A model generated the notes under the pieces. The model did no database searches. It had not been told where the DNA came from and worked only from the letters and a program-made list of their open reading frames with translations. A program made the position numbers and the translations under genes. A DNA stretch of 39,260 nucleotides, from contig JACVGT010000042.1 of assembly GCA_018992685.1 (NCBI GenBank), positions 1-39,260 on the forward strand, given 5' to 3'. The stretch's first letter is position 1. Every line of letters begins with the position of its first letter. Source of the stretch: Theionarchaea archaeon. Its GTDB lineage: Archaea; Methanobacteriota_B; Thermococci; Methanofastidiosales; SZ-28-30. Shown one piece after another: positions 10,044-39,260 of this stretch.

Positions 10044-10928
10044 CTACTCCTCCGGAATGATTGAGTCAATCATTAGCAGGAAAAGTACTGAAAGGCCGGG
10101 GATTCCAAGGTACACCACCAGCATCATCATGTCCTGCATTGATAACGGTCCAAAATCCCCCCCACTGATCATGGTCAGGGTGGACATGACAATGACCAAG
10201 AAGATAGTGCCGAAAACCGGTATCGTAATGTAACTCTCAGCAAAAAGTCCCAAGTTTTCTGCAAAGTCTTTCATCATCTGCCTGTATTCAACCATCATGT
10301 TTTCAGCTTCATTATGCAGGTACATCTTGAGGTCTCCTCCTGAACGAACAGTAGTGGTGATGCCCATGAGCAGTTCAGAAAAACGCCGGGAAGGTGTGTG
10401 CTGTGTATAGTCATGGAGAACAGTCACAATATCCTTTCCAAAGAATCTACAGTCTCTAGTTATGTTCTTTGCCTCCTCTGCAATTTCTCCATACAGCTCA
10501 GATCTGGCCAGGGAGTCAAAGACAGCATCAGGGGGGACACCCGCTCCTGCCATTGCTGCCATGTATGGAACAGCAAAAGGCAATTTGGAGTCAATAGCCC
10601 GCTTTCTGGAGTCAGCCATGAAGCTTGGATAGATGTAGAAAAAGGCGAACATAAATATTGGAGTAAGAATAGAGGTTAAAGCCATTGCCAGGGTGATAGC
10701 TAGTCTTTCTTTCCCTAACAGGGACAAGAACATGGCTACCGCCAACATCATGAGAGGCATGATAATTGCAGTGATCAATGCTGCGTACGAGAAGTACTCC
10801 CCTACAGTTATGCGGATATTGGCCTTCCGAATACTTGCACGTAGACTTGCGGAGCTCCCGATTAAGGGATCGATGATTGGACCAAAAATCTTGTAGGCCA
10901 ATCGGGAAAGAGCAAGTGCAATATTCAT
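10044..10928 (-). CDS. Type II secretion F-domain membrane protein (TadB/FlaJ-like half)
   Basis: The 294-aa protein contains a single T2SF domain (AVPYMAAMAGAGVPPDAVFDSL to TTVRSGGDLKMYLHNEAENMM) with two hydrophobic segments before it and two after. It should form the inner-membrane platform together with the next gene's product. Its start overlaps the stop of the ATPase gene by 4 nt, and it is followed after 1 nt by the second T2SF gene, so the three proteins are probably made in a fixed ratio. Which half corresponds to TadB and which to TadC is inferred only from gene order. Confidence 0.87.
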   Translation of the reverse strand: MNIALALSRLAYKIFGPIIDPLIGSSASLRASIRKANIRITVGEYFSYAALITAIIMPLMMLAVAMFLSLLGKERLAITLAMALTSILTPIFMFAFFYIYPSFMADSRKRAIDSKLPFAVPYMAAMAGAGVPPDAVFDSLARSELYGEIAEEAKNITRDCRFFGKDIVTVLHDYTQHTPSRRFSELLMGITTTVRSGGDLKMYLHNEAENMMVEYRQMMKDFAENLGLFAESYITIPVFGTIFLVIVMSTLTMISGGDFGPLSMQDMMMLVVYLGIPGLSVLFLLMIDSIIPEE

Positions 10929-12562
10929 ACTGTTGCCTCGATCTTGCCAAGAACTGAGTCAGGATCCCTATAGTACTCAGCAATGATTTCTGCCACGTCC
11001 TTGTAGAACCTGATCTGGTTATTGTGCATCCAGCTGATAATCTGCTTTCTTCTTTCAATCTCCTTGAGAATCTCTTCCATAGACATACCTTTCTCTTTTT
11101 CCAATCGCTCCAGCAGGTAACTTCTGCCTGTAAACCTGAAGGTATCTTCAAAGGGGTTCCACTCATACAGTGTATTGGTAATGACCTCTTTTGTGGAAGG
11201 GTCCAGATCCACCACTTCCACGATATCGGTGATTCTTCGGGTGATTTTTCCTCTGAGCCTCACCCTCGCTTGGAGCAAGACAATGTCCAGATTCTTAATA
11301 AGAATACGGGGGCAGTTAATGGGCTCTGATTCCAGACGGTGAACTACACCCTGAGGAGAATCAGCGTGAATTGTACCCATGGCAGCGTGACCTGTGGCTA
11401 TGGCCTGGAAAAGAGTATATGCCTCCTTACCTCGCACCTCTCCCACCACAATGTAATCAGGACGTTGTCTCAATGAAGCCTTCAGGAGGTCGAACATATC
11501 CACTTCACCCATCCTCTTGCCTGATGGTGAAATGGGTCCGAACCCTGCTCTGGTAACTGCAGGAATCCAGTTCTGGTGAGCTACATTGAGTTCAGCAGTG
11601 TCCTCAATAGAGACAATCTTAGCTTCGGGCCTGATGAACAGACACAGACAGTTCAGTGTGGTGGTCTTTCCAGATGCTGTCCCGCCCGCTATGAGAATAG
11701 ACACTCCCTTCTCCATGAAGAACCACATCAGAGCCAGCATGGAAGCAGAGAATGTACCAAATGTCATCATATCGGGGGGAGTCAGAGGATCCTCTCTGAA
11801 TTTACGGATAGTAAACGTAGAACCATGCATAGTTACCTCCTTCCCCAGTGAAAGCTGCACACGAGAACCATCAGGAAGAGACCCATCCAGCAAGGGCTCT
11901 GCAATGGAAACGTGGCGCTGGCATCGCTGAGCCAGCTTAATGATAAAGGAATCCAGTTCGTCTGCATTTCTGAATATGACGTTGGTCTTCAGGTTCTCAA
12001 AGTGCCGGTGAAAGATGTACAGAGGGATAGCCGGACCGTCACATGAGATATCCTCAATGTTTGGGTCTCTCAGGATGGGATCTATTCTATTGTATCCCAC
12101 GAATTCTCTAGTGACATAATAGGTGAGTCGTTCATAGCTTGGTCTGTCCATGCGCATCCGGTACTTCCTGATGACGTTGTTTACCTCTCTGCGTAGGTAA
12201 TCAGTAAGGCCACCCTCATCAAGTGTCTTGAAGTCAATGTTAATGGTCTCATGGAGAATGGCATTGATCTGCTCCATCTTCAATTCATCGTCCCGGGTAA
12301 GTCCTGGTTCCAGCACTTTATAGAACATTTCTTTACTATCAGAATCATAGTACACATTTGCATACGCATAGGGTGGGTTGATGGGATAGGTGATATTCAG
12401 CTTGTTGAGGGGAATTTCCAGAACGTCGGCATCCAGCAACGGGGATGCGAGCTGGACTCCTCCTGCATTGTAGATATTAACTGGTGGTCCGAACTTGGAT
12501 TCAGGTTCTTCTAGTTGGAGTTGTTTCTGTTTTGGTTTTCTGAGGCTGAGATTGAAAGCCAT
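10925..12562 (-). CDS. Pilus/secretion ATPase (FlaI/TadA/GspE family)
   Basis: The 545-aa ATPase has the full motif set: Walker A GGTASGKTT (residues 293-301), an Asp box near IVSIEDTAELN, Walker B IVVGEVRG (371-378) and the His box GHAAMGTIHAD (391-401). An N-terminal domain of about 270 residues (Y-x-N ... RREVNNVIRKYRMRMDRPSYERLTYYVTREFVGY) is typical of archaeal members. It powers assembly of a pilus-like fibre or secretion from the cytoplasmic face. It is the first gene of an operon with two T2SF proteins and a prepilin peptidase. A GGTGAT ribosome-binding site precedes the ATG. A palindrome, ACTAT-N4-ATAGT, lies between the TATA box and this site, suggesting repression or conditional expression. 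Confidence 0.92.
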   Translation of the reverse strand: MAFNLSLRKPKQKQLQLEEPESKFGPPVNIYNAGGVQLASPLLDADVLEIPLNKLNITYPINPPYAYANVYYDSDSKEMFYKVLEPGLTRDDELKMEQINAILHETINIDFKTLDEGGLTDYLRREVNNVIRKYRMRMDRPSYERLTYYVTREFVGYNRIDPILRDPNIEDISCDGPAIPLYIFHRHFENLKTNVIFRNADELDSFIIKLAQRCQRHVSIAEPLLDGSLPDGSRVQLSLGKEVTMHGSTFTIRKFREDPLTPPDMMTFGTFSASMLALMWFFMEKGVSILIAGGTASGKTTTLNCLCLFIRPEAKIVSIEDTAELNVAHQNWIPAVTRAGFGPISPSGKRMGEVDMFDLLKASLRQRPDYIVVGEVRGKEAYTLFQAIATGHAAMGTIHADSPQGVVHRLESEPINCPRILIKNLDIVLLQARVRLRGKITRRITDIVEVVDLDPSTKEVITNTLYEWNPFEDTFRFTGRSYLLERLEKEKGMSMEEILKEIERRKQIISWMHNNQIRFYKDVAEIIAEYYRDPDSVLGKIEATV

Positions 12563-12576
12563 AGTATCACCTACTT

Positions 12577-12590
12577 ACTATCAGAATAGT
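12577..12590. promoter_or_regulatory. Palindromic operator candidate ACTAT-CAGA-ATAGT
   Basis: This is an inverted repeat with 5-nt arms and a 4-nt centre, 15 nt before the ATPase start codon and downstream of its TATA box. The same arm-and-spacer pattern recurs at 34524, 38901, 38955 and 38988. Its place between TATA box and start suits a repressor. Confidence 0.5.
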
Positions 12591-12597
12591 AGTCCTT

Positions 12598-24496: not shown

Positions 24497-24874
24497 ATGA
24501 GATTGAAAAGGAACATTGGTGATGCAAAGTATGAAACTACATTTCTCCTCAGGCCGGTAGATGGTGTTGGAGAAAGTATGAAAGCAGTGCTCAAATGCAT
24601 CTTCTGGAGAAAACCCGAACTTTCAGAACCTGCTTTGGAATTCCTTGAGATCATCAAAGAGAATAAAGGTGTTGATGACAGCCTGTGGGAGACGTTCTGC
24701 AGGAGCTCATCCATTACCCGGGGTCAGTATGACAGCATAATCAAGAAACTGAGAGGCTCGGGATTGATCTACAAGAGAGACAGCACCTGGATGCTTTCAG
24801 ATGATTTCATGGAGTTTCTTCAGACTGTACTTCAAATAGCAGAACACTGGAAGATCGAGGGTGAGTATCAATGA
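24497..24874 (+). CDS. Small winged-helix-like protein coupled to the giant surface protein
   Basis: The 125-aa protein is basic at the N-terminus. Its second half has helix-turn-helix character: LWETFCRSSSITRGQYDSIIKKLRGSGLIYKRDSTWMLSDDF (about residues 67-108) reads as a recognition helix followed by a beta wing. It is probably cytoplasmic and may bind DNA, although the motif is weak and no family is recognised. Its last 4 nt (ATGA) overlap the start of the 2183-aa surface protein, so the two are translationally coupled. It could be an autoregulator of that gene. It is transcribed from a strong leaderless promoter. Confidence 0.62.
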   Translation: MRLKRNIGDAKYETTFLLRPVDGVGESMKAVLKCIFWRKPELSEPALEFLEIIKENKGVDDSLWETFCRSSSITRGQYDSIIKKLRGSGLIYKRDSTWMLSDDFMEFLQTVLQIAEHWKIEGEYQ

Positions 24875-27800
24875 AGAAGGCAATTCCCCTGATGCTCTTG
24901 GTGCTGCTAGCTGCTGCACAAGTGAACTCGCAGCAAGATACCAGTGTTCCCCAGTATCTCGAATTTGACGATCAGATTCTGGTAATGAGAGAGTCCTTAC
25001 GGCAGGATAGAATTGAAATGATTCGTTCAGAACGGTTTGAGCCTAATGAGTGGTATGCTGACGTCTATGGGCCAGCCCCTCCCTATTACTTCTTCCAGGC
25101 TCCCCTAGGAAGTGTGATGCAGGACCCCTCTGCAACATACTATGGAAGGCAGATTATTCTGGGTCCTAACTCCCTGTACATGATAATAGTCTATGATTTT
25201 GAACACGACTCCATTATTGAGGCGGGAGAGTGGAAAGATATAAATGGGAACTTCATTGCAGAAGCCGAGGAATGGTTTGACGAGAATATGAACAATGTCA
25301 GAGATTTCGGCGAATGGACAGATTCCAATGGAAATGGAATTGTGAACCTTGGAGAACTCACTGATGTAAATGGAAACGGTGTCTTCGATATTGGAGAATG
25401 GCATGAAGGAAAGAACACTGACGGAGACCCCACCAACAATTTGCCAGGAGAATTCAATGGGGCCGTTGATCCCAATGAATGGATCGGGATGAACCTTGAT
25501 CGATCTATAACAAAAAAACTGGCCCTGAAAATCTATAAGAGAGTTTACACAGCTGCGGTACCCATTTGGAAGGAGATGGACTACAAGGAATATGTCTATC
25601 CAACATACCCAGAAAGGGTTATCCAGCACCCAGCACTGAGATCCATGACATCCCTGACTGATAATCAGAAACTAGTGTTGCTCTTGAGACTTGAAGACTG
25701 TGAACGCTGTGAAGTCGTTGGGGATGTTGCGTGGTATGAAGATGAATTTGCTCGAATCGTATTTAATTTCCAGGGATTCGTCAGAGAAACACTTCACACC
25801 ACCCTCCCCCGTTGCGAGGGATGCTACCAGGCCACGGTATCTCATTACGCCAGGCTACAGATCTATGTCCACGAAAAGTTTGATCTGCTGTACGAAGATT
25901 TCTACCTGCACTCTGTGGAACCCAGAGGACTTCCTGACAATGCCGATGGAACCACGGGATACTACTACTCGCCACGGGACGAGATGTACCGTGCTGATCG
26001 GTATGAGAGAAGAATCCGTTCGCTGGTCAGCTTTGATCCATACTATCTCATCATCCGGGATAATAACGAAATGGTACTTTACGAGACAATCTATGGAAAA
26101 GCGCTGATTGTACCCTACGATGCTAAGGAAGAGGAATATGGTTCTCACATTTACGAACGCAAGTATCCTGACGGCACAGAAAAGGACATCCGCATAGAAG
26201 TGATCCATGTCTATCAGATTGAGACTCCATCCTGCGAACAGGTGCTTGTAGCCCGGCTGCTCATTGATGAGGACACTGAGGCCTACAATACGTCAAGTAT
26301 AGACCCTGACGAGAAGGTGTTCACAGTGTTCTATTACGCCTGTGACAACCACTTTGAAAATAACGTCATCTTCCCTGAAGAATATGATAGAGGTCTTTCT
26401 GATTTTGGCATCATAGTAGAGAAGATAGAACTGGAAGAGGAGAAGGTGTGGTTGAAATTCGTGAGAGAAGTGGAATCTGAGAGAATTCCCAATCCTGCGG
26501 GATTCCTTTTTGGAAGCCAGGACTATCAAATAGTGTTTGATGAATTAGACAGGGACAACCCCCTGGGCATGTGCGACTACTACGATAAACAAGAAGAGAA
26601 TATCCCTCGATTCGAGAAAATCCTGGTGGATGTGTCCTTACCTTACCGGTTTTTGTTGAACAATGCAGTCTTGAAATATGAGGACCTGAAAGGAAATCCC
26701 AATGAACTGGCCTCTTACGAGGAACAACCCTGGGAAATGACTGAATGGAACACAGAAGTGACCATTCTGCAGCTGAAAAAAATAGCCTATAATCCGAATG
26801 CTGCAGACTATACAGGGTTGGGGTACGACGATATTCCTATCTACAACCCACCATTGAATCCAGCTCCAGGATTGGTGCAGGTAGGACCTGATCTGCTACC
26901 TAATTTCCAGATTTCAGACGAGGACTTTTCTGGAACTTGTATCCCCGGGGATACTATCACATTCTATATTGAGGTGTATAACGGATCTGGGGGGCCAATG
27001 GCTGTGCAGGTCCAGGATGATATACCTGTTGGAATGCAAATGGATGCAGCCCAGATAACTCAACTGATTCTCTCAGGTGGTGTGTTGATTGAGATCCTCC
27101 CAGCTGATGGAATCGGGAATCCGGGAGAGACGGTAGTATGGAACATTCCCAATCTCCCTCCAGGATATACCTTGCTATCATACAATGCTACAGTTGTTTC
27201 CGACGGAACCGTTGGCTTTGGAGGAAGTATCATAAACGATGGATGCATTGCACAGTACTTCGAGACTGGAATCCCCAGGATTGCTGCAGCCCCTGCAGTG
27301 GAAATACTTGTTCAGTCTGCCCAAATTATAAAAGAACCCTTCGCAGACCTTGCATGCACCATTCCGGCTCCAACTATTCTTCCAGGAAGCAGATTGTATT
27401 ACAGACTGACTGTTTACGACACAATAGTGAATCCAGTGAGTCTCTACCATCCGCAAGTTATCGAGGTATCTGATGTTATACCCATTCCCACCATCAACCC
27501 CCAATACCACGTCTCATTTCCTGGACTGACCCCTCAACCAATTGTAGGGAACGTTGTTTTGTGGCAGGGAGTGAATGTACTGGGTTCAGGAGGTTCTATG
27601 ACCGGCATCTACAGTGTTTTTGTCCCCGTCGGATCAGCTGGAAATATTTTGAACGATGCATCAGTTACCTACGTTGTTCCCTTCCCTCTCCCAGGAGTAA
27701 CAACCGTAACGACAGTAAGCAACCTGGCAGAGACATGGATTGTGACCCAGTTGTCTCAGATAACTGAGCCGCTGGAGCCCTGTCTGTCCATGAATATCAG

Positions 27801-30800
27801 CAAAGAAGGTCCCGCATCGCAGGCAGGGGGAGTCATACGTTATGAAATTACTGTGGCCAACAGAGGGTCTGGGCCCTATGCAGATGCTTTCAACCTGGTA
27901 ATCATTGATAAACTACCTCAATATGCATCAGGACCTGTGAACATTCAATCCACTAACCCGTTGGTAACCTGGACCACACATGATTCTGATGGGGATTTTG
28001 TGGATGATGTCATTGTGTGGAAGGTCGATCAGCTCCCCGCGGGGTCAGACTTTGAACTGACCTTTGAAATAACCATTGAAACCACGCAAATCCCCTACAA
28101 CTGCTACATGATCAAAGTGTTTACCTATGATCTGTACAAACAGGAGGAGGATCGATATCTGGGAATGGGAGGTATTTCTCGGGTTGCTGAGTATAAAATC
28201 TCTCCCACTGACATGACTGAAGTAATAAAAGATTCGGTATTCACCCAGGTTATGAAAGGAGCAGAAAAGCTTGAAAACTACTTGATAAAGGTCTTTGAAA
28301 GCAGGATCTACGACAAGGAATTTTTCTTTCAGTTTGTAGAGTTCAATGAGAAGGAAAGATCCGCGCGGTTCAAGATGTTTGAGCGTGTGGGATCTGATCT
28401 GGACATGAACGTGTACTGGGGAGTCCTGGAACAATCAACCATGGAAACTGGCTCCTCTCAGATCTACTCTAATGATACCTTCCTGGCTCACGTCTTGCTG
28501 AGGAATGACGGAACTGGAACTATCTCAGACATCTCGTATGAACTGGATGCTCCTGATTTCTCTCCCATGGACATGACGTGGGAGTACAATATTGAGCAAT
28601 ACCTGGATTTAGATATCGGCCCGGATGAGCAAGCTGGACTCCTCTTCCTCATGAAAGCACCCCAGGTGTCTCATGAAACCACCTTCCCGCTCAAGGTGAA
28701 GCTGACATACACAGATGAAAGGGGAACCAGGAGTGAAACGAAGACTGCATACCTCAATGTCTTGGCTCAGAGACGAGCAAACGTCCAGATAAAGAAAACC
28801 ATTCTTGAAGGGAAGTCAGTGGTGAAGGAGACAGGAAAAGAAGTAGCTGACCTGCGGGTCGGAGAAGAGCGGACAATTGTAGCTTACATTCAGAATCTAT
28901 CAGAAGATGAGATTGAACAAGTCCACTTCATAGACCAAATACCTCAGGGATTGGAAGTGATTGAAGGATATGCAGAGTGGATGGGCGCTCTCAAGCCTGG
29001 TGAAACAGTAAAGGTCACGTACAAGATTAAAGTAAAACAGATTGGAATTTACCAGTTCAGAGGAAAGACCTTCTATAAAGACGAAAAGGATCACGTGTAC
29101 GAAGGAATAAGCAACATTACTGAGATCAGGGTAATAACGGCTCCCGGGCCCAAATTGAATCGAGAAGTCGACACTACCATTGTATCAAAAGGAGATGTTA
29201 TAACAGTCGTTATCAGAGTGGAAAATGACACGCCCACTACTCTCGAAGAAATTCAGGTTGTAGACATTGTACCGGAAGGATTTCAGGTAGAATCTTTGAA
29301 GACCAAGAATCTAGAAGAAGACAATGGAGCAATTCGGATCTATATTGACAGTCTAAAACCCAACAAATATGTTCTCATAGAATACACCTTACGAGCAGGC
29401 GAAAAGGCCGGAAAATTCACACACAAAGGAGTGAGACTGGCTTATGAAAACGGGGATGGCCTTAAAGAAGAAATATTGACAGACGACCAGGAATTGCTCA
29501 TTCCGGAGACGGAAACACCCAATATTTCCATGGACTACACCCTGAGAAGAAAGATAGACTCAGACGGGGAATATGTCACAACAGTACTCACCTTGTCCAA
29601 TTCAGGAGGAATTGCAGCTAAGGCCATAAAGGTTGTCACACCACTCCTGGAGGGAACAGAGTTTGTGGAAGCTTCCACCAACTATCTGCAGGAGAATGGG
29701 ATAATGAGCTTCATGGTGGATGAAATCGAGGCAGGAGAGCAATTTACTGTCAAGTATACCTTCAAAATTCCTCATTTCAACACGGATCGAACCTATGCTT
29801 TGAATTTTGATGTGGTGTATTCGGACGACTTTGACAGGGAATACTCAGACCAACTGGAAGGGGAGCTTGTGGTTCGGGCTCAAAAGCCACTTATCACGGT
29901 CACTAAGGTGATAGAAAAGAATGCAGTCAAACTGAACTTCTCGGTGAGAGTGGCTGTAAACATAATAAATGAAGGTGAAATTGCAGCTGATACTCAGGTA
30001 AGCGATCCTCTGCCTGACGGCTTGGTTCTCTTGTCAGGCACCAATGCGTGGGAAGGCAGGCTGGAACCAGGAGAATCTGCTCAGATCATGTATGAGGTTC
30101 TGTGCACTCGAGTAGGAACATTTGCACTCCCCCAAGCTGCTGCCATTTACAGCGATAGGTGGCAGATCGACTATGTCGCAGAATCTGACCCTACCAGCCT
30201 CCTCATACGGGGAATACTCATTGAAAAGAGCGCAGATGTTGCCGACCTGAAGACAGGGGAAGTAGTGGTGGTAACAGTGACAGTCACCAACACATATGAC
30301 GAACGAGCAGCCAATATAGTCATAGAGGACATGATTCCTGAAGAACTCACCCTTGTGGAAGGAAATCCCGGATGGAGCATTGGCGTTTTGAACCCCGGTG
30401 AATCTGTTACCTTCACATATTCTCTCAAGCCCACGAAGCCTGGAACCTTTAGTCTGGGACCTGCCAGAGCTACGTTTATTGATGTGTACAATGATAAGCA
30501 TGAGTCTTCTTCAGGTTCAGTGACTATCAATGTAATAGAAATGGTGCCTCCAGAGACCAAACCTCCTACTTCAACTCCCCCCGAAGAGAAAGAGAAAGGG
30601 ATGGGACAGAGGGTCGCGGAATCTTTTGACATCGCCATGATCCTGTTGATAGTGCTTGTTATGTTCATCTCCATGGTAGTGGCATTCCTGTTGATAGAAA
30701 GGCGAAGATCAGAGGAAGAGGAGTACTACGAACTGGAAGAATTACCTGCGCCACCTCGTGAAGCTGTGTATGAGAGAAGAGAAGAAGTGAAGAAGGCTCT

Positions 30801-31422
30801 CCCTACACCAGAGGAACGCGGAGAAGCAGAAGAAGAAATAACGCCGCTGGACGTCTTAAAAAGAAGGCGGGAAAGCCTAGAGGAGAAGCGAGAGAAAGTG
30901 GAAAAGGTGGTCGAAACCAAAGATGTGCATGAGCTCTTGAGAAAAGAAGGGACGAAGGCCAGGAAAATCCCTGAGGAATTTGAGTTTGGTAAAGAACCTG
31001 AGGAATTTGAGTTTGGTAAAGAACCTGAGGAATTTGAGTTTGGTAAAGAATTCGAGTTTGGTAGAGAAGCTGAAAAACCAAGAGGCAAGGGACAGCTAGC
31101 AGAAGAGCTTGGTCTCGAAGACCTGTTTGTTGAAGAAGAATCCAAGAGCACCGAAGAATCCCCTTCAGAATTTACCGATGTCCGTGACATTCTCCGGATG
31201 CCAAAAGAAAAAGAAGAGCCTTCAACAAAAGAAGAACCCCTCAGATGGAAACCAGAAAAACCAGACAATGCAGAAAAACCACACAATGAATTCCTTGATA
31301 TCCATGAAATTATTAAGGGGCCCAAAAAAGAAAAAGAGGAGAAAAAGTCAACGACACTTGAATCTCCTGAGGAAGACGACGAGGATTTTGATCCTCGAGA
31401 TATTCTAAAAAAGAGAGACTAG
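24871..31422 (+). CDS. Giant surface protein: Ca-loop repeats, DUF11 modules, TM, cytoplasmic tail
   Basis: This 2183-aa protein starts with a signal peptide (about 1-20). Residues 107-176 are five tandem 14-residue calcium-loop-like repeats of the D-x-N-x-N-G-x-x-x-x-GE type. A long unfamiliar region follows to about 675. From about 677 to 1890 there are some eight or nine Ig-like modules, many with DUF11 landmarks such as VVDIVPEGF, IDQIPQGLEV and SDPLPDGLVL. A Pro/Thr linker leads to one transmembrane helix (about 1919-1946). The acidic-basic tail of about 237 residues is cytoplasmic. It holds three exact EEFEFGKEP repeats and five copies of a short [DV]-x-[DE]-[IL]-[LI]-[KR]-like motif. 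Such a tail suggests contact with intracellular partners. The whole resembles a surface stalk or adhesin. Confidence 0.85.
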   Translation: MKKAIPLMLLVLLAAAQVNSQQDTSVPQYLEFDDQILVMRESLRQDRIEMIRSERFEPNEWYADVYGPAPPYYFFQAPLGSVMQDPSATYYGRQIILGPNSLYMIIVYDFEHDSIIEAGEWKDINGNFIAEAEEWFDENMNNVRDFGEWTDSNGNGIVNLGELTDVNGNGVFDIGEWHEGKNTDGDPTNNLPGEFNGAVDPNEWIGMNLDRSITKKLALKIYKRVYTAAVPIWKEMDYKEYVYPTYPERVIQHPALRSMTSLTDNQKLVLLLRLEDCERCEVVGDVAWYEDEFARIVFNFQGFVRETLHTTLPRCEGCYQATVSHYARLQIYVHEKFDLLYEDFYLHSVEPRGLPDNADGTTGYYYSPRDEMYRADRYERRIRSLVSFDPYYLIIRDNNEMVLYETIYGKALIVPYDAKEEEYGSHIYERKYPDGTEKDIRIEVIHVYQIETPSCEQVLVARLLIDEDTEAYNTSSIDPDEKVFTVFYYACDNHFENNVIFPEEYDRGLSDFGIIVEKIELEEEKVWLKFVREVESERIPNPAGFLFGSQDYQIVFDELDRDNPLGMCDYYDKQEENIPRFEKILVDVSLPYRFLLNNAVLKYEDLKGNPNELASYEEQPWEMTEWNTEVTILQLKKIAYNPNAADYTGLGYDDIPIYNPPLNPAPGLVQVGPDLLPNFQISDEDFSGTCIPGDTITFYIEVYNGSGGPMAVQVQDDIPVGMQMDAAQITQLILSGGVLIEILPADGIGNPGETVVWNIPNLPPGYTLLSYNATVVSDGTVGFGGSIINDGCIAQYFETGIPRIAAAPAVEILVQSAQIIKEPFADLACTIPAPTILPGSRLYYRLTVYDTIVNPVSLYHPQVIEVSDVIPIPTINPQYHVSFPGLTPQPIVGNVVLWQGVNVLGSGGSMTGIYSVFVPVGSAGNILNDASVTYVVPFPLPGVTTVTTVSNLAETWIVTQLSQITEPLEPCLSMNISKEGPASQAGGVIRYEITVANRGSGPYADAFNLVIIDKLPQYASGPVNIQSTNPLVTWTTHDSDGDFVDDVIVWKVDQLPAGSDFELTFEITIETTQIPYNCYMIKVFTYDLYKQEEDRYLGMGGISRVAEYKISPTDMTEVIKDSVFTQVMKGAEKLENYLIKVFESRIYDKEFFFQFVEFNEKERSARFKMFERVGSDLDMNVYWGVLEQSTMETGSSQIYSNDTFLAHVLLRNDGTGTISDISYELDAPDFSPMDMTWEYNIEQYLDLDIGPDEQAGLLFLMKAPQVSHETTFPLKVKLTYTDERGTRSETKTAYLNVLAQRRANVQIKKTILEGKSVVKETGKEVADLRVGEERTIVAYIQNLSEDEIEQVHFIDQIPQGLEVIEGYAEWMGALKPGETVKVTYKIKVKQIGIYQFRGKTFYKDEKDHVYEGISNITEIRVITAPGPKLNREVDTTIVSKGDVITVVIRVENDTPTTLEEIQVVDIVPEGFQVESLKTKNLEEDNGAIRIYIDSLKPNKYVLIEYTLRAGEKAGKFTHKGVRLAYENGDGLKEEILTDDQELLIPETETPNISMDYTLRRKIDSDGEYVTTVLTLSNSGGIAAKAIKVVTPLLEGTEFVEASTNYLQENGIMSFMVDEIEAGEQFTVKYTFKIPHFNTDRTYALNFDVVYSDDFDREYSDQLEGELVVRAQKPLITVTKVIEKNAVKLNFSVRVAVNIINEGEIAADTQVSDPLPDGLVLLSGTNAWEGRLEPGESAQIMYEVLCTRVGTFALPQAAAIYSDRWQIDYVAESDPTSLLIRGILIEKSADVADLKTGEVVVVTVTVTNTYDERAANIVIEDMIPEELTLVEGNPGWSIGVLNPGESVTFTYSLKPTKPGTFSLGPARATFIDVYNDKHESSSGSVTINVIEMVPPETKPPTSTPPEEKEKGMGQRVAESFDIAMILLIVLVMFISMVVAFLLIERRRSEEEEYYELEELPAPPREAVYERREEVKKALPTPEERGEAEEEITPLDVLKRRRESLEEKREKVEKVVETKDVHELLRKEGTKARKIPEEFEFGKEPEEFEFGKEPEEFEFGKEFEFGREAEKPRGKGQLAEELGLEDLFVEEESKSTEESPSEFTDVRDILRMPKEKEEPSTKEEPLRWKPEKPDNAEKPHNEFLDIHEIIKGPKKEKEEKKSTTLESPEEDDEDFDPRDILKKRD
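25189..25398 (+). repeat. Five 42-nt (14-residue) calcium-loop-like repeats
   Basis: The encoded units are VYDFEHDSIIEAGE, WKDINGNFIAEAEE, WFDENMNNVRDFGE, WTDSNGNGIVNLGE and LTDVNGNGVFDIGE. Spacing is exact, and the DxNxNG core sharpens towards the last units. Confidence 0.8.
30970..31050 (+). repeat. Three identical 27-nt tandem repeats
   Basis: Three perfect copies encode PEEFEFGKE in the cytoplasmic tail, followed by a partial copy (FEFGRE). DNA identity suggests recent expansion and possible length variation between strains. Confidence 0.9.
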
Positions 31423-33629: not shown

Positions 33630-34061
33630 ATGCGGAAGTTTTCGGATGAAGAGCTTTTGGAGTTTCATCGAAAAGGGTTAACAGATAGGGAGATCAGTGA
33701 GAAGTTGGGTGTGACTCAGGCCGCAGTCAACTATCGCCGGGAGAAACTGGGTCTGGAAAATAATTACCAGCCAATCACATTTTCCGACCAGCAGCTGCTC
33801 GCCCTGTACAATCAAGGCTTGAATGATAGGGAAATAAGTGAAACCCTTGGCGTGACTCAAGCTGCTGTAAACTACAGAAGAGGGAGACTGGGACTGAAAT
33901 CGAATCACATATCGGAAAGAGTTTTCTCAACCCTGTATGAAGAAGGATTGTCTGCTGAAGAAATCGCTCACCGGTTGGATGCCCCGCTTCCAGCAGTTTT
34001 GCATAAGATGAAGAAATTCGAAATCGTTTCAGAACATGGTGTGGCAGAGGCAGAAGTATAA
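33630..34061 (+). CDS. Tandem helix-turn-helix DNA-binding protein
   Basis: The 143-aa protein consists of three HTH units. Units one and two (residues about 4-43 and 51-90) are near duplicates, sharing LTDREISEKLGVTQAAVNYRR versus LNDREISETLGVTQAAVNYRR. Unit three (about 97-130, LSAEEIAHRLDAPLPAVLHKM) is diverged. Helix-turn-helix repeats of this resolvase/sigma-70-like kind read DNA in tandem. No ligand-binding or catalytic domain is present. An inverted repeat of 8-bp arms lies just before the promoter. The gene is followed by a ribbon-helix-helix protein and then the 1379-aa surface protein, so it may help control surface genes; this is inference. Confidence 0.8.
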   Translation: MRKFSDEELLEFHRKGLTDREISEKLGVTQAAVNYRREKLGLENNYQPITFSDQQLLALYNQGLNDREISETLGVTQAAVNYRRGRLGLKSNHISERVFSTLYEEGLSAEEIAHRLDAPLPAVLHKMKKFEIVSEHGVAEAEV

Positions 34062-34193: not shown

Positions 34194-34364
34194 ATGAAAA
34201 ATATCACTTTCAAGAACATACCAGACAATCTGTACTACAAGGTAGTTGAATGGAAGGGAAAGTTGCGCTGTGCTACATGGCAGGATTTCCTCGAGAAGGT
34301 AATTTTCGTCCTGGAAGAATCTGAAGATACCATGGTAGTAGAACAGGCGTCAGAAAGAGCGTAG
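34194..34364 (+). CDS. Small ribbon-helix-helix DNA-binding protein
   Basis: This short gene (ATG 34194 to TAG 34362-34364) encodes 56 residues. It starts with a beta strand (NITFKNIP), then helix one (DNLYYKVVEWKGKL), a turn, and helix two (TWQDFLEKVIFVLEES). That is the order and spacing of Arc/CopG-type ribbon-helix-helix regulators, which bind palindromes as dimers of dimers. An AAGGTGG ribosome-binding site and a strong BRE/TATA promoter confirm it is expressed. It lies between the tandem-HTH gene and the surface-protein gene, and is the nearest candidate to bind the ACTAY-N4-ATAGT palindromes. A toxin partner is not visible, so a toxin-antitoxin role is unlikely. Confidence 0.72.
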   Translation: MKNITFKNIPDNLYYKVVEWKGKLRCATWQDFLEKVIFVLEESEDTMVVEQASERA

Positions 34365-34523
34365 AACGCTGGGAGGCATTGCCTGCCGCCTTCATACCAC
34401 TGCAACAACTTCTTGTGTGAGCACGAAGCTTTCTTACGAATCCGATCGTAATTTTGGATTTGTCACGCAAATGTCCCTTTATCTTCACAAAGGAAACCTC
34501 ACATGAAGATTTTGATTAAAGTA

Positions 34524-34540
34524 ACTACTATGATAGTAGT
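34524..34540. promoter_or_regulatory. Operator candidate ACTACTAT-G-ATAGTAGT
   Basis: Perfect 8-bp arms surround one base; the core also reads ACTAC-TATG-ATAGT, matching the recurring palindrome. It starts exactly 87 nt before the CGAAAAGTAT promoter element, the same distance as in the 39208 promoter. Confidence 0.6.
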
Positions 34541-34610
34541 AAACAGAAAAACAACGAAAAAGAAATCTTTCTTTTTATCCTCAACAATGACCTTATATGC
34601 CTTCCTTAAG

Positions 34611-34627
34611 CGAAAAGTATATAAAGG
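34611..34627 (+). promoter_or_regulatory. BRE/TATA promoter of the 1379-aa surface protein
   Basis: CGAAAAGTATATAAAGG is nearly identical to the element at 39075. Another TATA-like box (CCTTATATG, 34591) starts 20 nt upstream in both copies. Confidence 0.6.
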
Positions 34628-34735
34628 GATAGATGTATAAGAATTAAAACCTTCAATTAGACGAAAGTTCCAAAAGATGGCATGAGAAAAGTTCTCTGAC
34701 CATCTGGGATCAAGTCTGACAAAGGAGGAAAGGAT

Positions 34736-37700
34736 ATGGCAACCACAAAAAGAAAGGTTAACGGTCTTCTCATATGCGTGCTCCTGGCAGGGAGCATGAT
34801 CATACTGAACTCGAGAGAAGTAGCAGCCCAGAGTATTGGAGGTACTGTATACGAAGACTCCAACATGAATGGTGTCTTCGATGCAGGCGAGGGTTTCCTC
34901 ACGGGTGGAACAGTCTTTCTCGATCATCCTGCTGGAATCTCCATCCCCATTGGAGGAGGTGGTGTCTACAATTTGGCCACTTCCATGGGATTTCACTGGG
35001 TAACAGTACGTATCCCGGGTTACAAGGCAGTAACGAAGAACGTCAACGTCACAGGTGCCATGGCCGTAAACTTCGGAATGGTACCCTTTGAGTCCGTAAC
35101 AGGCAGAGCAGTGAAGACAGATGGCACTGGTGTTGTGGGCATGCATGTGGAAGTCTATGATCAAACATTCACGTATGTCATGGAAACCTACACCGATGCT
35201 TTTGGGAATTACTGTATCCATGGGTTGCCTCCAGGCATTTACAACTTGCGTATTCAAAAGGCAGAATACTTCGACCAGTGGAAATTCAATATCACAGTGG
35301 ATGGAACCACTATCAGTGGTGTGCAGTATAACTGGCACACTACATCCAACGTTGATTTCACCAATTTGAGTTACGATCACGGAATGGTTTTCGGAACAGT
35401 GAACAGTGGAGGGAATCCCTTGCCTGGAGCAGTGGTTGAGGTTCCCGGACTAGGGTTGAGTACTACGACGGACGTTTTCGGTAACTACAGTATCCATAAC
35501 ATTCCCGCAGGCTGGTTCTACATTGTGGCCAAGAAACCTGGGTTCCAGACCGGTGTTGAATTGATTTGTGTTACCAATGGAACTACCGGTCCTACAGGCC
35601 CCACCATCTTTAACCTGGTAACTGCAACGGGATTGCCCATAATACAAGGATCAGTCACAGATGGTCAGCAAGCCATTGAAAATGCACTGGTGGAAATACC
35701 CGGTCTCGGATGGTCATACGGAACTGGATTAGAGATTTACACCGACAAGGCGGGGTTCTACATTTTCGCCGACTACGGGGCCAGTAATTCGTACACTGCC
35801 CATCCTCTGACAGCAGGAAAATTCAACATTGTGGTGCGCAATGAAGCAGGAAGCGTTACTGATGAAAGCGATAATCACCACAAAACCAACGCTCGCATTG
35901 TCACAGCTCAAATGGGGCGAGTTACGGTCTCTGACTTCAGGTTAGAGGAGAACTATGGCATCAAATTCGGGCGCGTAATCAACACAGATGGAATTGGAGT
36001 TGAAGGGGCTACTGTCTATGTTCCCTACTCTCCGTATAAGACAGTGACAGACAGCAATGGAGTCTTCGCCATGAAGCTGCCCTCTGAAACCTATTCTGAG
36101 GACTGTGACTCAGCCGTGCTACCCTACCAGACAACTCGAGGATTTGACGAAATGACCTACTGTGGTATGATAGATACGTTCCAGACGAGCTGTACTGGAA
36201 CTCCTCCAGATTGCCATCGAATGCACAAAGCCCGGTATCTCATCAAAGCAGAAAAGGCATCATACACGGTAACGCTGGAATATTATATACCGGTTCCTGG
36301 AGGACCGGGACTTGCCAGTCCTCCTGATCCTTGTGACTTGTGCGAAAACGGCATCATCCTCAATCACAGGACAGGAATTCTCAAAGGACAGGTATATGAT
36401 GCAGGCGGGATGCCTGTCACCAATGGCTTCGTATTTGTGGCCGGACGTGACGTACCGCTGCTGGCCAATGGGTATTTCGAAACCCATGATGTGGCTCCAG
36501 GAATCTACACTGCTGCAGTCATCGATCCTACGAGGACCATTCTGGGAAGGGAGACTGGAATTCATGTCTATCCCGATCAGATTACCTACGAGATTATCAA
36601 TCTCGGTGCTACTCCCACTACTCATTTCATATCAGGATTCATCTACAGCAACAAGGTCATACCTGATGGTGCAGGTAATATGATTCCTGATACCAATGGA
36701 TATACGGCAGGCGCATCTTTTGATCCGGGAGAGGGAATTTATGGAGTTACCGTGGAGACGACTGCCAGCTCCAGTTACAATGCAACGACTGACAGTTATG
36801 GGTTCTACTGCATAACAGGAATTGACACGACAATAGCAGCCACTACTATCGTGGCAGTAAAGACTGGGTACATTACTATTGCCAATCCCTCAGTGACTCC
36901 TTCTTTTGTCCTAGCATTCTTCTCCGGGTTTGCAGGAACTGCAGGTGCCACTGTATCTCCCATGAGCAAGTTCAGAGGAAGTCTATCAGGGAGAGTAACA
37001 AATGAATCAGGAAGAGATGTATCCAGTGCCATAGCTGCGATTTGGGAGCCAGCCATGATTACGGACGAAACCGACACCAATGGATTCTACATCTTTGATG
37101 ATGTTGAATACGGTTCCTATTTGGTGATGGTGTGTGGCGGAGGAGCATGTGGTATTGACTACCAGGTGGCTTTCAGCCAGGGTTCCTATGCACCAGTGAC
37201 TGTCAATGGAAATGTGACCAAGGACATTACCATAGAGAAAATGAAGGGCAGAGTTGAAGGGATAGTGGACGACGGCGCCAATCCCCTTGTTGATGTTGCA
37301 GTAAGAATATCTGGAATGTATTCTGCTTCAACAGACAGTGCAGGGTACTATACGGTGCTGAACGTTCCTTCCGGTACGCATACTGCCTATGCATACGCAT
37401 ACGGATACATCCTGCAGAAGCACAACAACGCAGATCAGAGCATCGGTATTGTCGGAGGACAGATAGCAACTGCAAACTTCTCGTTGGCCGCTGGAATTAT
37501 GAACACCGGATGGGCAGATGGGTTCATAACTCTTGAGCTCACTGATGGGTTCTGCAATATTGTAGCCAGACTCAATCCATCCTTCGATTTTGCCTTGACT
37601 GATAGTGAAGGGTACTACCTGATCACCAATATCAACAGCGGAACCCAGTACTACGTACATGGTGAACTCGCTAACTACGAAGTCTCAGCTGCGGGTCCCT

Positions 37701-38875
37701 TTGCAGTGAGTGCAGGAACGGGCACACGAGTAGCTGTCATTCACCTCAGACGGTGCACAGGTACCATTGATGGATATCTCACAGATTCCCAGACTGGAGC
37801 ACCCATCGTGGGAGCCACAGTCAAACTCTCGGACATGAACAGGAACAGTGAGGTTTCGTTGTGGTCTCCCGGCGTGGACTACTACACAGATTACAGCAGA
37901 ACCCAGATATACCAGACGACCACTGATTCTCTAGGGTACTACCAGTTCACCCTTGTCCCATGGAATGACGCGAATACGTCCGGACTGAACAAAACGTGGG
38001 CATGGAGTGTGGTAGTCATCAAGACAGGGTATGCGGTGGGCACGAGCAATGCCGCAGTGGCGTGCGGTTCCACGAGTACGGTGAGCTTCACAGTTGATCC
38101 GTTGTGTGGAGTCTCTGGCACTGTGACATTTGACGTATTGTGTGCCACCACAAGCACGGTGACTGCTACCCAGGTTGCAGGCGGGGAAGAAGGACTCACT
38201 GAGTTTGGCTGGTCAACGAATGGTGTTGCCACCGTGACTACAAATGGAGGCAGTTACTATATCGGTCACTTGCACCCCGGAGCCTACAGCGTGACAGCCA
38301 CTGCAGGCAGCTGCATCATGAGCAGTCCATCCACACCCTATACGGGAGCTAATGCAGTAGCACTGAACTACAGGAAGACAACCCCAGATATTGACTTTGG
38401 ATTTGGCCTAGTTGGATCACCAAGTCCTGTGTCCGGATCTGAATCTGGATCTGAAACGGGAACAGGAACAACATCTGGTTCAGACTCTAGCAGTGGCTCG
38501 AGTTCTGAAACTGGTGACCAAGGATCCGGTAGCGAAGGAGATCAAGAGAGCGATTCTAGCAGTGGGAGCAGTACTACTCCCTCACAGGGCGGTCAGTCTC
38601 AGAGTCAGGAACCTGAACAGGGATCCTACTACAACAGACTCCTCAAAGAGGTAGCAGAAAACGTCGTTAAGCAGGCTAGAGCGCTGAAGAACAGGATCTA
38701 CGAAACGTTGGAAACAGATACCGTCCCAGATAATATCAGGCGGATGCTCACGCTGGCAGATTCCAACCTGGAGAATGCAGAGACGGCCCTCACTCAGCAG
38801 AACTACGTAGAGGTTCTCAAATTCGCGCAGACTGCCATTTCATACTACGAGAAGATCCTTCAAGAACTCACTTAA
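34736..38875 (+). CDS. Large secreted protein with carboxypeptidase-regulatory-like / SdrD-like repeats
   Basis: The 1379-aa protein begins with a signal peptide (KRKVNGLLICVLLAGSM, cut near VAAQ at about residue 32). An SdrD-like module with DSNMNGVFDAGEG opens the mature chain. About a dozen carboxypeptidase-regulatory-like beta-sandwich repeats follow, each with a G-x-V ... NPLPGAVVEV ... T-D-x-x-G-x-Y-x-I-x-x-[IL]-P-x-G rhythm. Around residues 1225-1293 comes a Ser/Gly/Glu/Gln-rich linker. The last 85 residues form a helical domain (YYNRLLKEVAENVVKQ ... YYEKILQEL). There is no transmembrane helix, LPXTG or PGF-CTERM sorting signal, so it must be held by the helical domain or released. It has a tandem promoter and a palindromic operator candidate upstream. 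Confidence 0.82.
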   Translation: MATTKRKVNGLLICVLLAGSMIILNSREVAAQSIGGTVYEDSNMNGVFDAGEGFLTGGTVFLDHPAGISIPIGGGGVYNLATSMGFHWVTVRIPGYKAVTKNVNVTGAMAVNFGMVPFESVTGRAVKTDGTGVVGMHVEVYDQTFTYVMETYTDAFGNYCIHGLPPGIYNLRIQKAEYFDQWKFNITVDGTTISGVQYNWHTTSNVDFTNLSYDHGMVFGTVNSGGNPLPGAVVEVPGLGLSTTTDVFGNYSIHNIPAGWFYIVAKKPGFQTGVELICVTNGTTGPTGPTIFNLVTATGLPIIQGSVTDGQQAIENALVEIPGLGWSYGTGLEIYTDKAGFYIFADYGASNSYTAHPLTAGKFNIVVRNEAGSVTDESDNHHKTNARIVTAQMGRVTVSDFRLEENYGIKFGRVINTDGIGVEGATVYVPYSPYKTVTDSNGVFAMKLPSETYSEDCDSAVLPYQTTRGFDEMTYCGMIDTFQTSCTGTPPDCHRMHKARYLIKAEKASYTVTLEYYIPVPGGPGLASPPDPCDLCENGIILNHRTGILKGQVYDAGGMPVTNGFVFVAGRDVPLLANGYFETHDVAPGIYTAAVIDPTRTILGRETGIHVYPDQITYEIINLGATPTTHFISGFIYSNKVIPDGAGNMIPDTNGYTAGASFDPGEGIYGVTVETTASSSYNATTDSYGFYCITGIDTTIAATTIVAVKTGYITIANPSVTPSFVLAFFSGFAGTAGATVSPMSKFRGSLSGRVTNESGRDVSSAIAAIWEPAMITDETDTNGFYIFDDVEYGSYLVMVCGGGACGIDYQVAFSQGSYAPVTVNGNVTKDITIEKMKGRVEGIVDDGANPLVDVAVRISGMYSASTDSAGYYTVLNVPSGTHTAYAYAYGYILQKHNNADQSIGIVGGQIATANFSLAAGIMNTGWADGFITLELTDGFCNIVARLNPSFDFALTDSEGYYLITNINSGTQYYVHGELANYEVSAAGPFAVSAGTGTRVAVIHLRRCTGTIDGYLTDSQTGAPIVGATVKLSDMNRNSEVSLWSPGVDYYTDYSRTQIYQTTTDSLGYYQFTLVPWNDANTSGLNKTWAWSVVVIKTGYAVGTSNAAVACGSTSTVSFTVDPLCGVSGTVTFDVLCATTSTVTATQVAGGEEGLTEFGWSTNGVATVTTNGGSYYIGHLHPGAYSVTATAGSCIMSSPSTPYTGANAVALNYRKTTPDIDFGFGLVGSPSPVSGSESGSETGTGTTSGSDSSSGSSSETGDQGSGSEGDQESDSSSGSSTTPSQGGQSQSQEPEQGSYYNRLLKEVAENVVKQARALKNRIYETLETDTVPDNIRRMLTLADSNLENAETALTQQNYVEVLKFAQTAISYYEKILQELT
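38389..38628 (+). repeat. Ser/Gly/Glu-rich low-complexity linker
   Basis: The coding sequence holds repeated TCTGGATCT- and AGCAGTGGC-like stretches encoding SGSESGSETG, SSSGSSSETG and similar units. It links the last beta-sandwich to the helical C-terminal domain of the 1379-aa protein and probably acts as a flexible or glycosylated stalk. Confidence 0.7.
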
Positions 38876-38897
38876 CTTCTTCTTTTTTCCTTTTTAA
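38876..38897 (+). terminator. T-rich terminator after the 1379-aa protein gene
   Basis: TTCTTCTTTTTTCCTTTTTAA follows the stop directly, consistent with archaeal oligo-U termination. Confidence 0.5.
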
Positions 38898-38919
38898 ATT
38901 ACTATCGTAATAGTAATTT
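38896..38919. promoter_or_regulatory. Palindrome AAATTACTAT-CGTA-ATAGTAATTT
   Basis: Perfect 10-bp arms surround a 4-nt centre. The core is ACTAT-N4-ATAGT (38901-38914), the first of three copies between the two surface-protein genes. Confidence 0.6.
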
Positions 38920-38954
38920 CAATTCACTACCCGAACGAGCCAGTATTCTTTCTT

Positions 38955-38968
38955 ACTACTTAAATAGT
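38955..38968. promoter_or_regulatory. Operator candidate ACTAC-TTAA-ATAGT
   Basis: This is the second copy of the palindrome, one arm with C instead of T, 54 bp after the first and 33 bp before the third. Confidence 0.45.
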
Positions 38969-38987
38969 ATCTTTTTTAGGAAAAGCA

Positions 38988-39001
38988 ACTATCATAATAG
39001 T
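38988..39001. promoter_or_regulatory. Operator candidate ACTAT-CATA-ATAGT
   Basis: This third copy begins 87 nt upstream of the CGAAAAGTAT promoter element, the same spacing as in the 34736 promoter. Confidence 0.55.
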
Positions 39002-39074
39002 AGTATTACAGGATTAGACCCTAGAAGAATATTTATTTATATTCAAAATAAAGACCTTATATAGGATGAATGAC

Positions 39075-39092
39075 CGAAAAGTATTTAAAGGG
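39075..39092 (+). promoter_or_regulatory. BRE/TATA promoter of the 39208 gene
   Basis: CGAAAAGTATTTAAAGGG is preceded 20 nt upstream by a CCTTATATA box (39055), the same pair as before the 34736 gene. Confidence 0.6.
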
Positions 39093-39207
39093 TAATAATC
39101 ATAAGCATTTAGCAAAGAATCAGAACTCAAATCCAAAATAATGGCAAGATATATTCCCTTGTCATTGAGGATGAAGTCTGACGAACCAATAGTAGGAGGT
39201 AAAAAAG

Positions 39208-39260
39208 ATGGAAAACAAACCAGCGAAGAGAGGCTTAAGCCTCTTCATATGCATCATACT
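39208..39260 (+). CDS. N-terminus of a secreted protein (partial)
   Basis: ATG 39208 follows an AGGAGGT ribosome-binding site (39194-39200). The 17 visible residues (MENKPAKRGLSLFICII) are the basic start and hydrophobic core of a signal peptide, similar in style to the neighbouring 1379-aa protein. Because its promoter and leader are a duplicated copy of that gene's, it is probably a paralogous surface protein; the coding sequence runs off the window. Confidence 0.75.
   Translation, partial: MENKPAKRGLSLFICII

Follow-up and report, generated by a model that had tools for sequence, protein, structure and literature searches.

A probable expression cassette retained upstream of two tandem surface-protein genes in a Theionarchaea archaeon

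A tandem pair of surface-protein genes and their upstream regions

The window analyzed here, that is, the whole 39,260-nt stretch of DNA, is contig C24 of the 3.03-Mb genome of a Theionarchaea archaeon and ends at position 39260, inside the second of two genes encoding exported proteins (genes A and B, Table 1). The remainder of gene B is carried by contig C12, which starts with a 129-nt exact overlap to the window end (39260 / L023 1-129), and read across this contig join both genes are adjacent tandem paralogs. Their products share about 51-52% amino acid identity (52% across residues 83-1283), and because gene B is paralogous to gene A the locus is, judged by its sequence, one of tandem gene duplication. 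Both proteins have a signal-peptide-like start and carboxypeptidase-regulatory-like repeats; signal peptide, repeats and stalk were recognized by inspection. The gene A protein scores 51 bits against an NCBIfam S-layer family, far under the cut-off of 1400. We regard A and B, tentatively, as the probable coat proteins of the S-layer type in this organism. Elsewhere in the window (24871-31422), a large 2183-aa DUF11-repeat protein is encoded; close to its C-terminal tail it has a stretch resembling a membrane helix, and in the tail the motif EEFEFGKEP is repeated.

Table 1. Genes, upstream elements, operator dyads and candidate regulators. Positions without a contig prefix refer to the window; G001 is the second species used for comparison.
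Feature	Position	Strand	Remarks
Gene A	34736..38875	+	exported 1379-aa protein, carboxypeptidase-regulatory-like repeats, Ser/Gly/Thr-rich stalk
Gene B, start	39208..39260	+	exported paralog; rest at C12:77-6070; 1997 aa
Gene A elements: palindrome; CCTTATAT; CGAAAAGTAT; AAGTCTGAC; ATG	34524; 34591; 34611; 34712; 34736	+	
Gene B elements: palindrome; CCTTATAT; CGAAAAGTAT; AAGTCTGAC; ATG	38988; 39055; 39075; 39174; 39208	+	
Gene A operator, two overlapping dyads (34522-34539, 34525-34542)	34522..34542	+	one change in G001
Gene A upstream TATA-like box, GACCTTATAT	34589..34598	+	20 nt 5' of BRE; 10/10 same in gene B and in G001
Gene A main BRE/TATA, CGAAAAGTATATAAAGGG	34611..34628	+	identical in G001
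Gene A leader hairpin (UUAGAC/GUCUGA; UUCC/GGGA; AGAUGG/CCAUCU)	34656..34720	+	AAGTCTGAC is the closing arm; model match 92.6 bits
Gene A Shine-Dalgarno (AGGAGG) and spacer to ATG	34723..34735	+	
Gene B operator dyad 1, TTACTATCGTAATAGTAA	38899..38916	+	no mismatch
Gene B operator dyad 2, TTACTACTTAAATAGTAT	38953..38970	+	54 bp from dyad 1
Gene B operator dyad 3	38986..39003	+	33 bp from dyad 2; BRE distance same as gene A operator; identical in G001
Gene B upstream TATA-like box, GACCTTATAT	39053..39062	+	same as gene A box
Gene B main BRE/TATA, CGAAAAGTATTTAAAGGG	39075..39092	+	from A/B and G001 comparisons
Gene B leader hairpin (UCAGA/UCUGA; AUCC/GGAU; AAUGGCAAG/CUUGUCAUU)	39119..39183	+	model match 87.1 bits; identical in G001
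Gene B Shine-Dalgarno (AGGAGG at 39194) and spacer to ATG	39193..39207	+	
Dyad between TATA-like box and PilB3/type II-IV secretion ATPase gene (10925-12562, -)	12575..12592	-	conserved in G001 (C142:12256)
Dyad before exported Ig-like protein	C5:138552		conserved in G001
Dyad before exported protein of unknown family	C16:28601		conserved in G001 (C99:25456)
Dyad before lipoprotein-like gene	C1:145159		
Dyad before further exported protein	C13:90867		
Perfect dyad directly 3' of strong TATA box	C1:245434 (L163 around 1501)		no clear gene immediately behind
Dyad inside gene	C7:124730		sole non-intergenic site
56-aa ribbon-helix-helix-like gene (MKNITFKNIPDNLYYKVVEWKGKL...)	34194..34361	+	directly 5' of gene A cassette; candidate regulator
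143-aa protein, three HTH units	33630..34061	+	5' of gene A; alternative candidate regulator

The first-pass annotation had described the same elements in the same order before both genes, and this description is borne out with coordinates exact to the base: the palindrome lies 87 nt from the BRE before A and before B, and the two TATA-like boxes are 20 nt apart in both cases. Three of its details need rewording. The leader lengths of 125 and 133 nt are right as figures but span BRE to ATG; for the 5' UTR proper, some 85-100 nt would be expected. The palindrome of gene B is imperfect, and the dyads of this gene number three rather than one (38899, 38953, 38986). The AAGTCTGAC leader motif is indeed present, but makes up an arm of an RNA hairpin that has three helices and is common to both leaders.

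The CCTTATAT element is also found 3' of CGAAAA, a BRE-like sequence, ahead of the 22840 gene and is thus plausibly used as a TATA box here; the boxes 20 nt apart read as putative tandem core promoters. By eye, a kink-turn in the leader and a small peptide encoded from 34588 were considered as well; the peptide lacks conservation in gene B.

Conservation of the cassette and its leader structure

The two upstream regions were registered on the BRE and the identity of each block was evaluated against 20,000 shuffles. The palindrome (16/20, 80%), GACCTTATAT (10/10, 100%) and the BRE/TATA (17/19, 89%) each exceeded all 20,000 shuffles, whereas the spacers were near chance (22/47, p = 0.03; 3/11, p = 0.32; 12/28, p = 0.24). 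When the region upstream of gene A was compared by blastn with the genome it comes from, the self-match alone was returned, the similarity of gene B lying under that sensitivity. At four-fold degenerate coding sites A and B share 35% identity, which amounts to saturation, and therefore no recognizable upstream similarity would be expected without selection.

A second species of the same genus (G001), whose gene A is 90% identical, was used for comparison. From TATA to ATG, 106 of 107 bases agree between the species before gene A and 114 of 115 before gene B; at four-fold sites the species are 61% (gene A) and 68% (gene B) identical. The gene B dyads are spaced 54 and 33 bp apart in both species (5.14 and 3.14 helical turns of 10.5 bp), with a 36-nt linker between dyads 1 and 2 that is 53% identical between species and equal in length.

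These comparisons bear on the annotation's proposal that the cassette was duplicated with preserved helical phasing and is functional. Duplication is supported, the genes behind being tandem paralogs, and function is strongly supported by conservation from paralog to paralog and from species to species. At the level of sequence, phasing is supported as well, as A/B spacings are exact despite near-chance spacers and the gene B dyad spacings are kept across species. The similarity of the aligned upstream regions exceeds generic promoter elements, with spacings kept. Saturated paralogs in which control elements, spacings and stem pairs have been retained make the A/B pair an unusually clear natural experiment.

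Alternatively, the similarity could be no sign of function but a passive remnant left by duplication, or by recent gene conversion. The copies are in tandem, and the gene B leader is the place where contigs end in both assemblies, an effect that sequence repeated or shared may have (the overlap is 99 nt in the second species and 129 nt in the window genome). However, the overall divergence of the A and B leaders argues against recent conversion, the similarity is limited to discrete elements between near-chance spacers, and each leader is almost frozen across species, which renders a passive relic most improbable.

Recombination offers another explanation of a conserved block, which would then be the site at which surface-protein genes are swapped behind one promoter in antigenic variation, as in the sap genes of Campylobacter fetus. 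The same leader is broken in two assemblies, and the gene B leader and first codons are identical between species, in line with such swapping. Yet in each copy the promoter is complete and the gene intact, the A and B leaders are too different for ready recombination, and a 99-129 nt stretch common to co-occurring strains would account for the assembly breaks. We take these breaks as a probable side effect of sequence common to related strains and consider a recombination site very unlikely.

Conservation of the cassette by selection, the reading that we prefer, extends to the leader RNA. A structure common to both leaders was evaluated with a base-pair overlap score against column shuffles; the score of A versus B was 40.7, compared with a shuffle mean of 1.6, and none of 1500 shuffles was as high. 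In the alignable part of the hairpin, two pairs are doubly compensated, three show one-sided changes and none is broken, and sliding the partner strand lowers pairing from 100% to 25-44%. A pair-shuffle control on this small alignable set (57/500) is not decisive alone. Against shuffled sequences, the gene A leader folds with a z of -3.8 and the gene B leader with a z of -1.7, the latter alone not unusually stable. Compensatory change, drawn in effect from two diverged leaders in two species, supports a predicted secondary structure common to both. In gene A, CCUUC (34650-34654) is able to pair with the Shine-Dalgarno GGAGG as well, a pairing that gene B does not have.

A generic resemblance of strong archaeal promoters, alike by chance or convergence and without common regulation, can be weighed at this point. 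BRE/TATA elements of the A/B type are indeed common, with 11 matches at <=2 mismatches versus 1 in a reversed control, but the operator at a given distance, GACCTTATAT, the leader motif, the hairpin and the exact spacings are all common to A and B, which are paralogs. The A/B alignment and the hairpin refute this explanation, to which we give almost no credence.

With regard to the distribution of the leader, zero-mismatch matches to AAGTCTGAC with its context (GGATNAAGTCTGAC) occur only 5' of genes A and B, in both genomes. A covariance model of the leader RNA, run on 23 genomes, gave convincing matches for genes A and B only; the weak matches in family f4 that were inspected, most of them within coding sequence or AT-rich DNA of other kinds and none followed by related genes, were rejected. 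A search of the leader against Rfam gave no meaningful match at E <= 1, so that it corresponds to no known Rfam family. Leaders of homologous genes from other families have strong promoters and are long but lack the operator and the AAGTCTGAC motif, and one of the two folds better than shuffles. Homologous surface-protein genes in related families (L063, L064) also have a pair of strong BRE/TATA promoters, separated by about 100 nt, 5' of a long leader. A perfect 16-nt palindrome, AGAGGCTTAAGCCTCT, unchanged in the second species, is found in the signal-peptide codons of gene B (L023, ~98-115) and could form a second small mRNA hairpin.

Genomic distribution of the operator dyad and candidate regulators

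The palindrome is an 18-bp dyad, TTACTAY-N4-RTAGTAA. An earlier pattern with a 1-nt center showed no excess over control, the correct pattern having a 4-nt center. At <=1 mismatch the dyad occurs at 10 sites genome-wide versus 1.5 expected, and 3 perfect dyads are found versus about 0 expected; at two mismatches there is no excess (36 versus 29). Nine of the 10 sites are intergenic, most of them 5' of genes for exported proteins and of the pilus-type ATPase gene. The search of the genome for further copies, which the first-pass annotation had proposed, thus recovered additional operator dyads, such as that at 12575. At the orthologous sites of the second species, the dyad is conserved for the A, B, pilB3-like, C5 and C16 genes. 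For the C16 gene the half-sites are retained while the N4 differs (CATA at C16:28601, TGCA at C99:25456 in G001), as expected of a dyad-binding protein. Together the sites point to a small undescribed set of putatively co-regulated cell-surface genes, in which one regulator may serve the pilus gene and the coat genes alike.

The position of the dyad relative to the core promoter is not uniform. It touches or closely trails a TATA-like box at C5, C16, C1:245434, C1:145159 and the pilus gene, the placement that a repressor site would have, and is distal before A and B, about 80 bp 5' of the BRE. The C1:245434 dyad was not found in the stretch of G001 that was compared, and no gene for an exported protein is obvious immediately 3' of it; it possibly serves a small RNA or small-protein gene. 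The long ORF beyond this dyad has its own promoter.

In 12 genomes of related families, no perfect copy of the dyad and no excess over a reversed control were found, and on this basis the system appears to be genus-level. We know of no archaeal regulator with TTACTAY-N4-RTAGTAA as its recognition sequence.

As regards the protein that would bind the dyad, one candidate is the 56-aa ribbon-helix-helix-like protein. It is unannotated, without a match in Pfam, NCBIfam or PHROGs, about 50-70% conserved across the order and very constrained for its small size. Small ribbon-helix-helix proteins typically bind short dyads, and the gene, which the second species has conserved too, sits immediately 5' of the cassette of gene A. 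However, the fold is putative and no operator is present at the gene's own promoter. The candidate is further weakened because its likely DNA-contacting strand (MKNITFKNIP) is (near-)identical across the order, including families without dyad excess in the 12 genomes. Its assignment as the dyad-binding regulator is tentative and rather unlikely.

Proposed control of the gene pair and comparison with known systems

We consider it fairly likely that the region upstream of genes A and B is a functional expression cassette of the S-layer type that was duplicated together with its gene and has been maintained by selection before A and B alike. The first-pass annotation is thus confirmed in its observation and, in essence, supported in its interpretation. 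In a first layer of control, a DNA-binding protein would recognize the dyad, at an overlapping pair before A and at three phased sites before B, this distal dyad being more likely an activating or looping site than a repressor site. Strong transcription would be driven, in a second layer, from the two TATA boxes 20 nt apart. In the third, the first 85-100 nt of the mRNA would form the three-helix hairpin, ending just 5' of the ribosome-binding site, and this hairpin could protect the mRNA or tune translation, or do both at once. An additional helix, present in gene A, would be able to cover the Shine-Dalgarno.

A bolder reading, which we regard as unlikely, takes the dyad as the mark of an undescribed archaeal regulon comprising coat proteins, other exported proteins and the pilus ATPase, and the hairpin as an RNA element of a new type by which the ratio of the two coat proteins is set (the Shine-Dalgarno can be hidden in A but not in B), perhaps via a protein sensing coat assembly. 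Archaeal control of very abundant cell-surface proteins is poorly known, and we know of no regulatory data for this lineage. The A/B region, read as the functional cassette proposed above, supplies exact targets (the dyad, the hairpin and the helix covering the Shine-Dalgarno) together with a short list of candidate co-regulated genes.

Archaeal repressors, such as those of the MsvR, NrpR and TrmB types, bind dyads over the TATA box or the start site. A dyad of similar size adjoins the core promoter at several sites elsewhere in this genome, whereas before A and B it is distal. In Methanolobus psychrophilus, long 5' UTRs are able to affect mRNA stability and translation, and genes have several start sites (PMC5378194). 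These UTRs are genome-wide and temperature-related, in contrast to the one specific conserved hairpin before two genes only that is described here.

By analogy, the best precedent for the A/B control region is that of the Methanosarcina S-layer gene slmA1 (MA0829 / Mbar_A1758), which has only one 5' end, located 159 nt upstream, and whose promoter and leader are strongly conserved from one Methanosarcina species to another; the authors call the role of the leader unknown (PMC3361143). As in slmA1, genes A and B are surface-protein paralogs with a long leader of predicted RNA structure and with promoter and leader conserved across species. The protein families differ (DUF1608 in slmA1, carboxypeptidase-regulatory-like repeats in A and B), and while one slmA1 paralog per strain is abundantly expressed, the two tandem paralogs A and B each retain the cassette. 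To the slmA1 arrangement, A and B add a dyad operator common to other genes, putative tandem TATA boxes and compensated stems.
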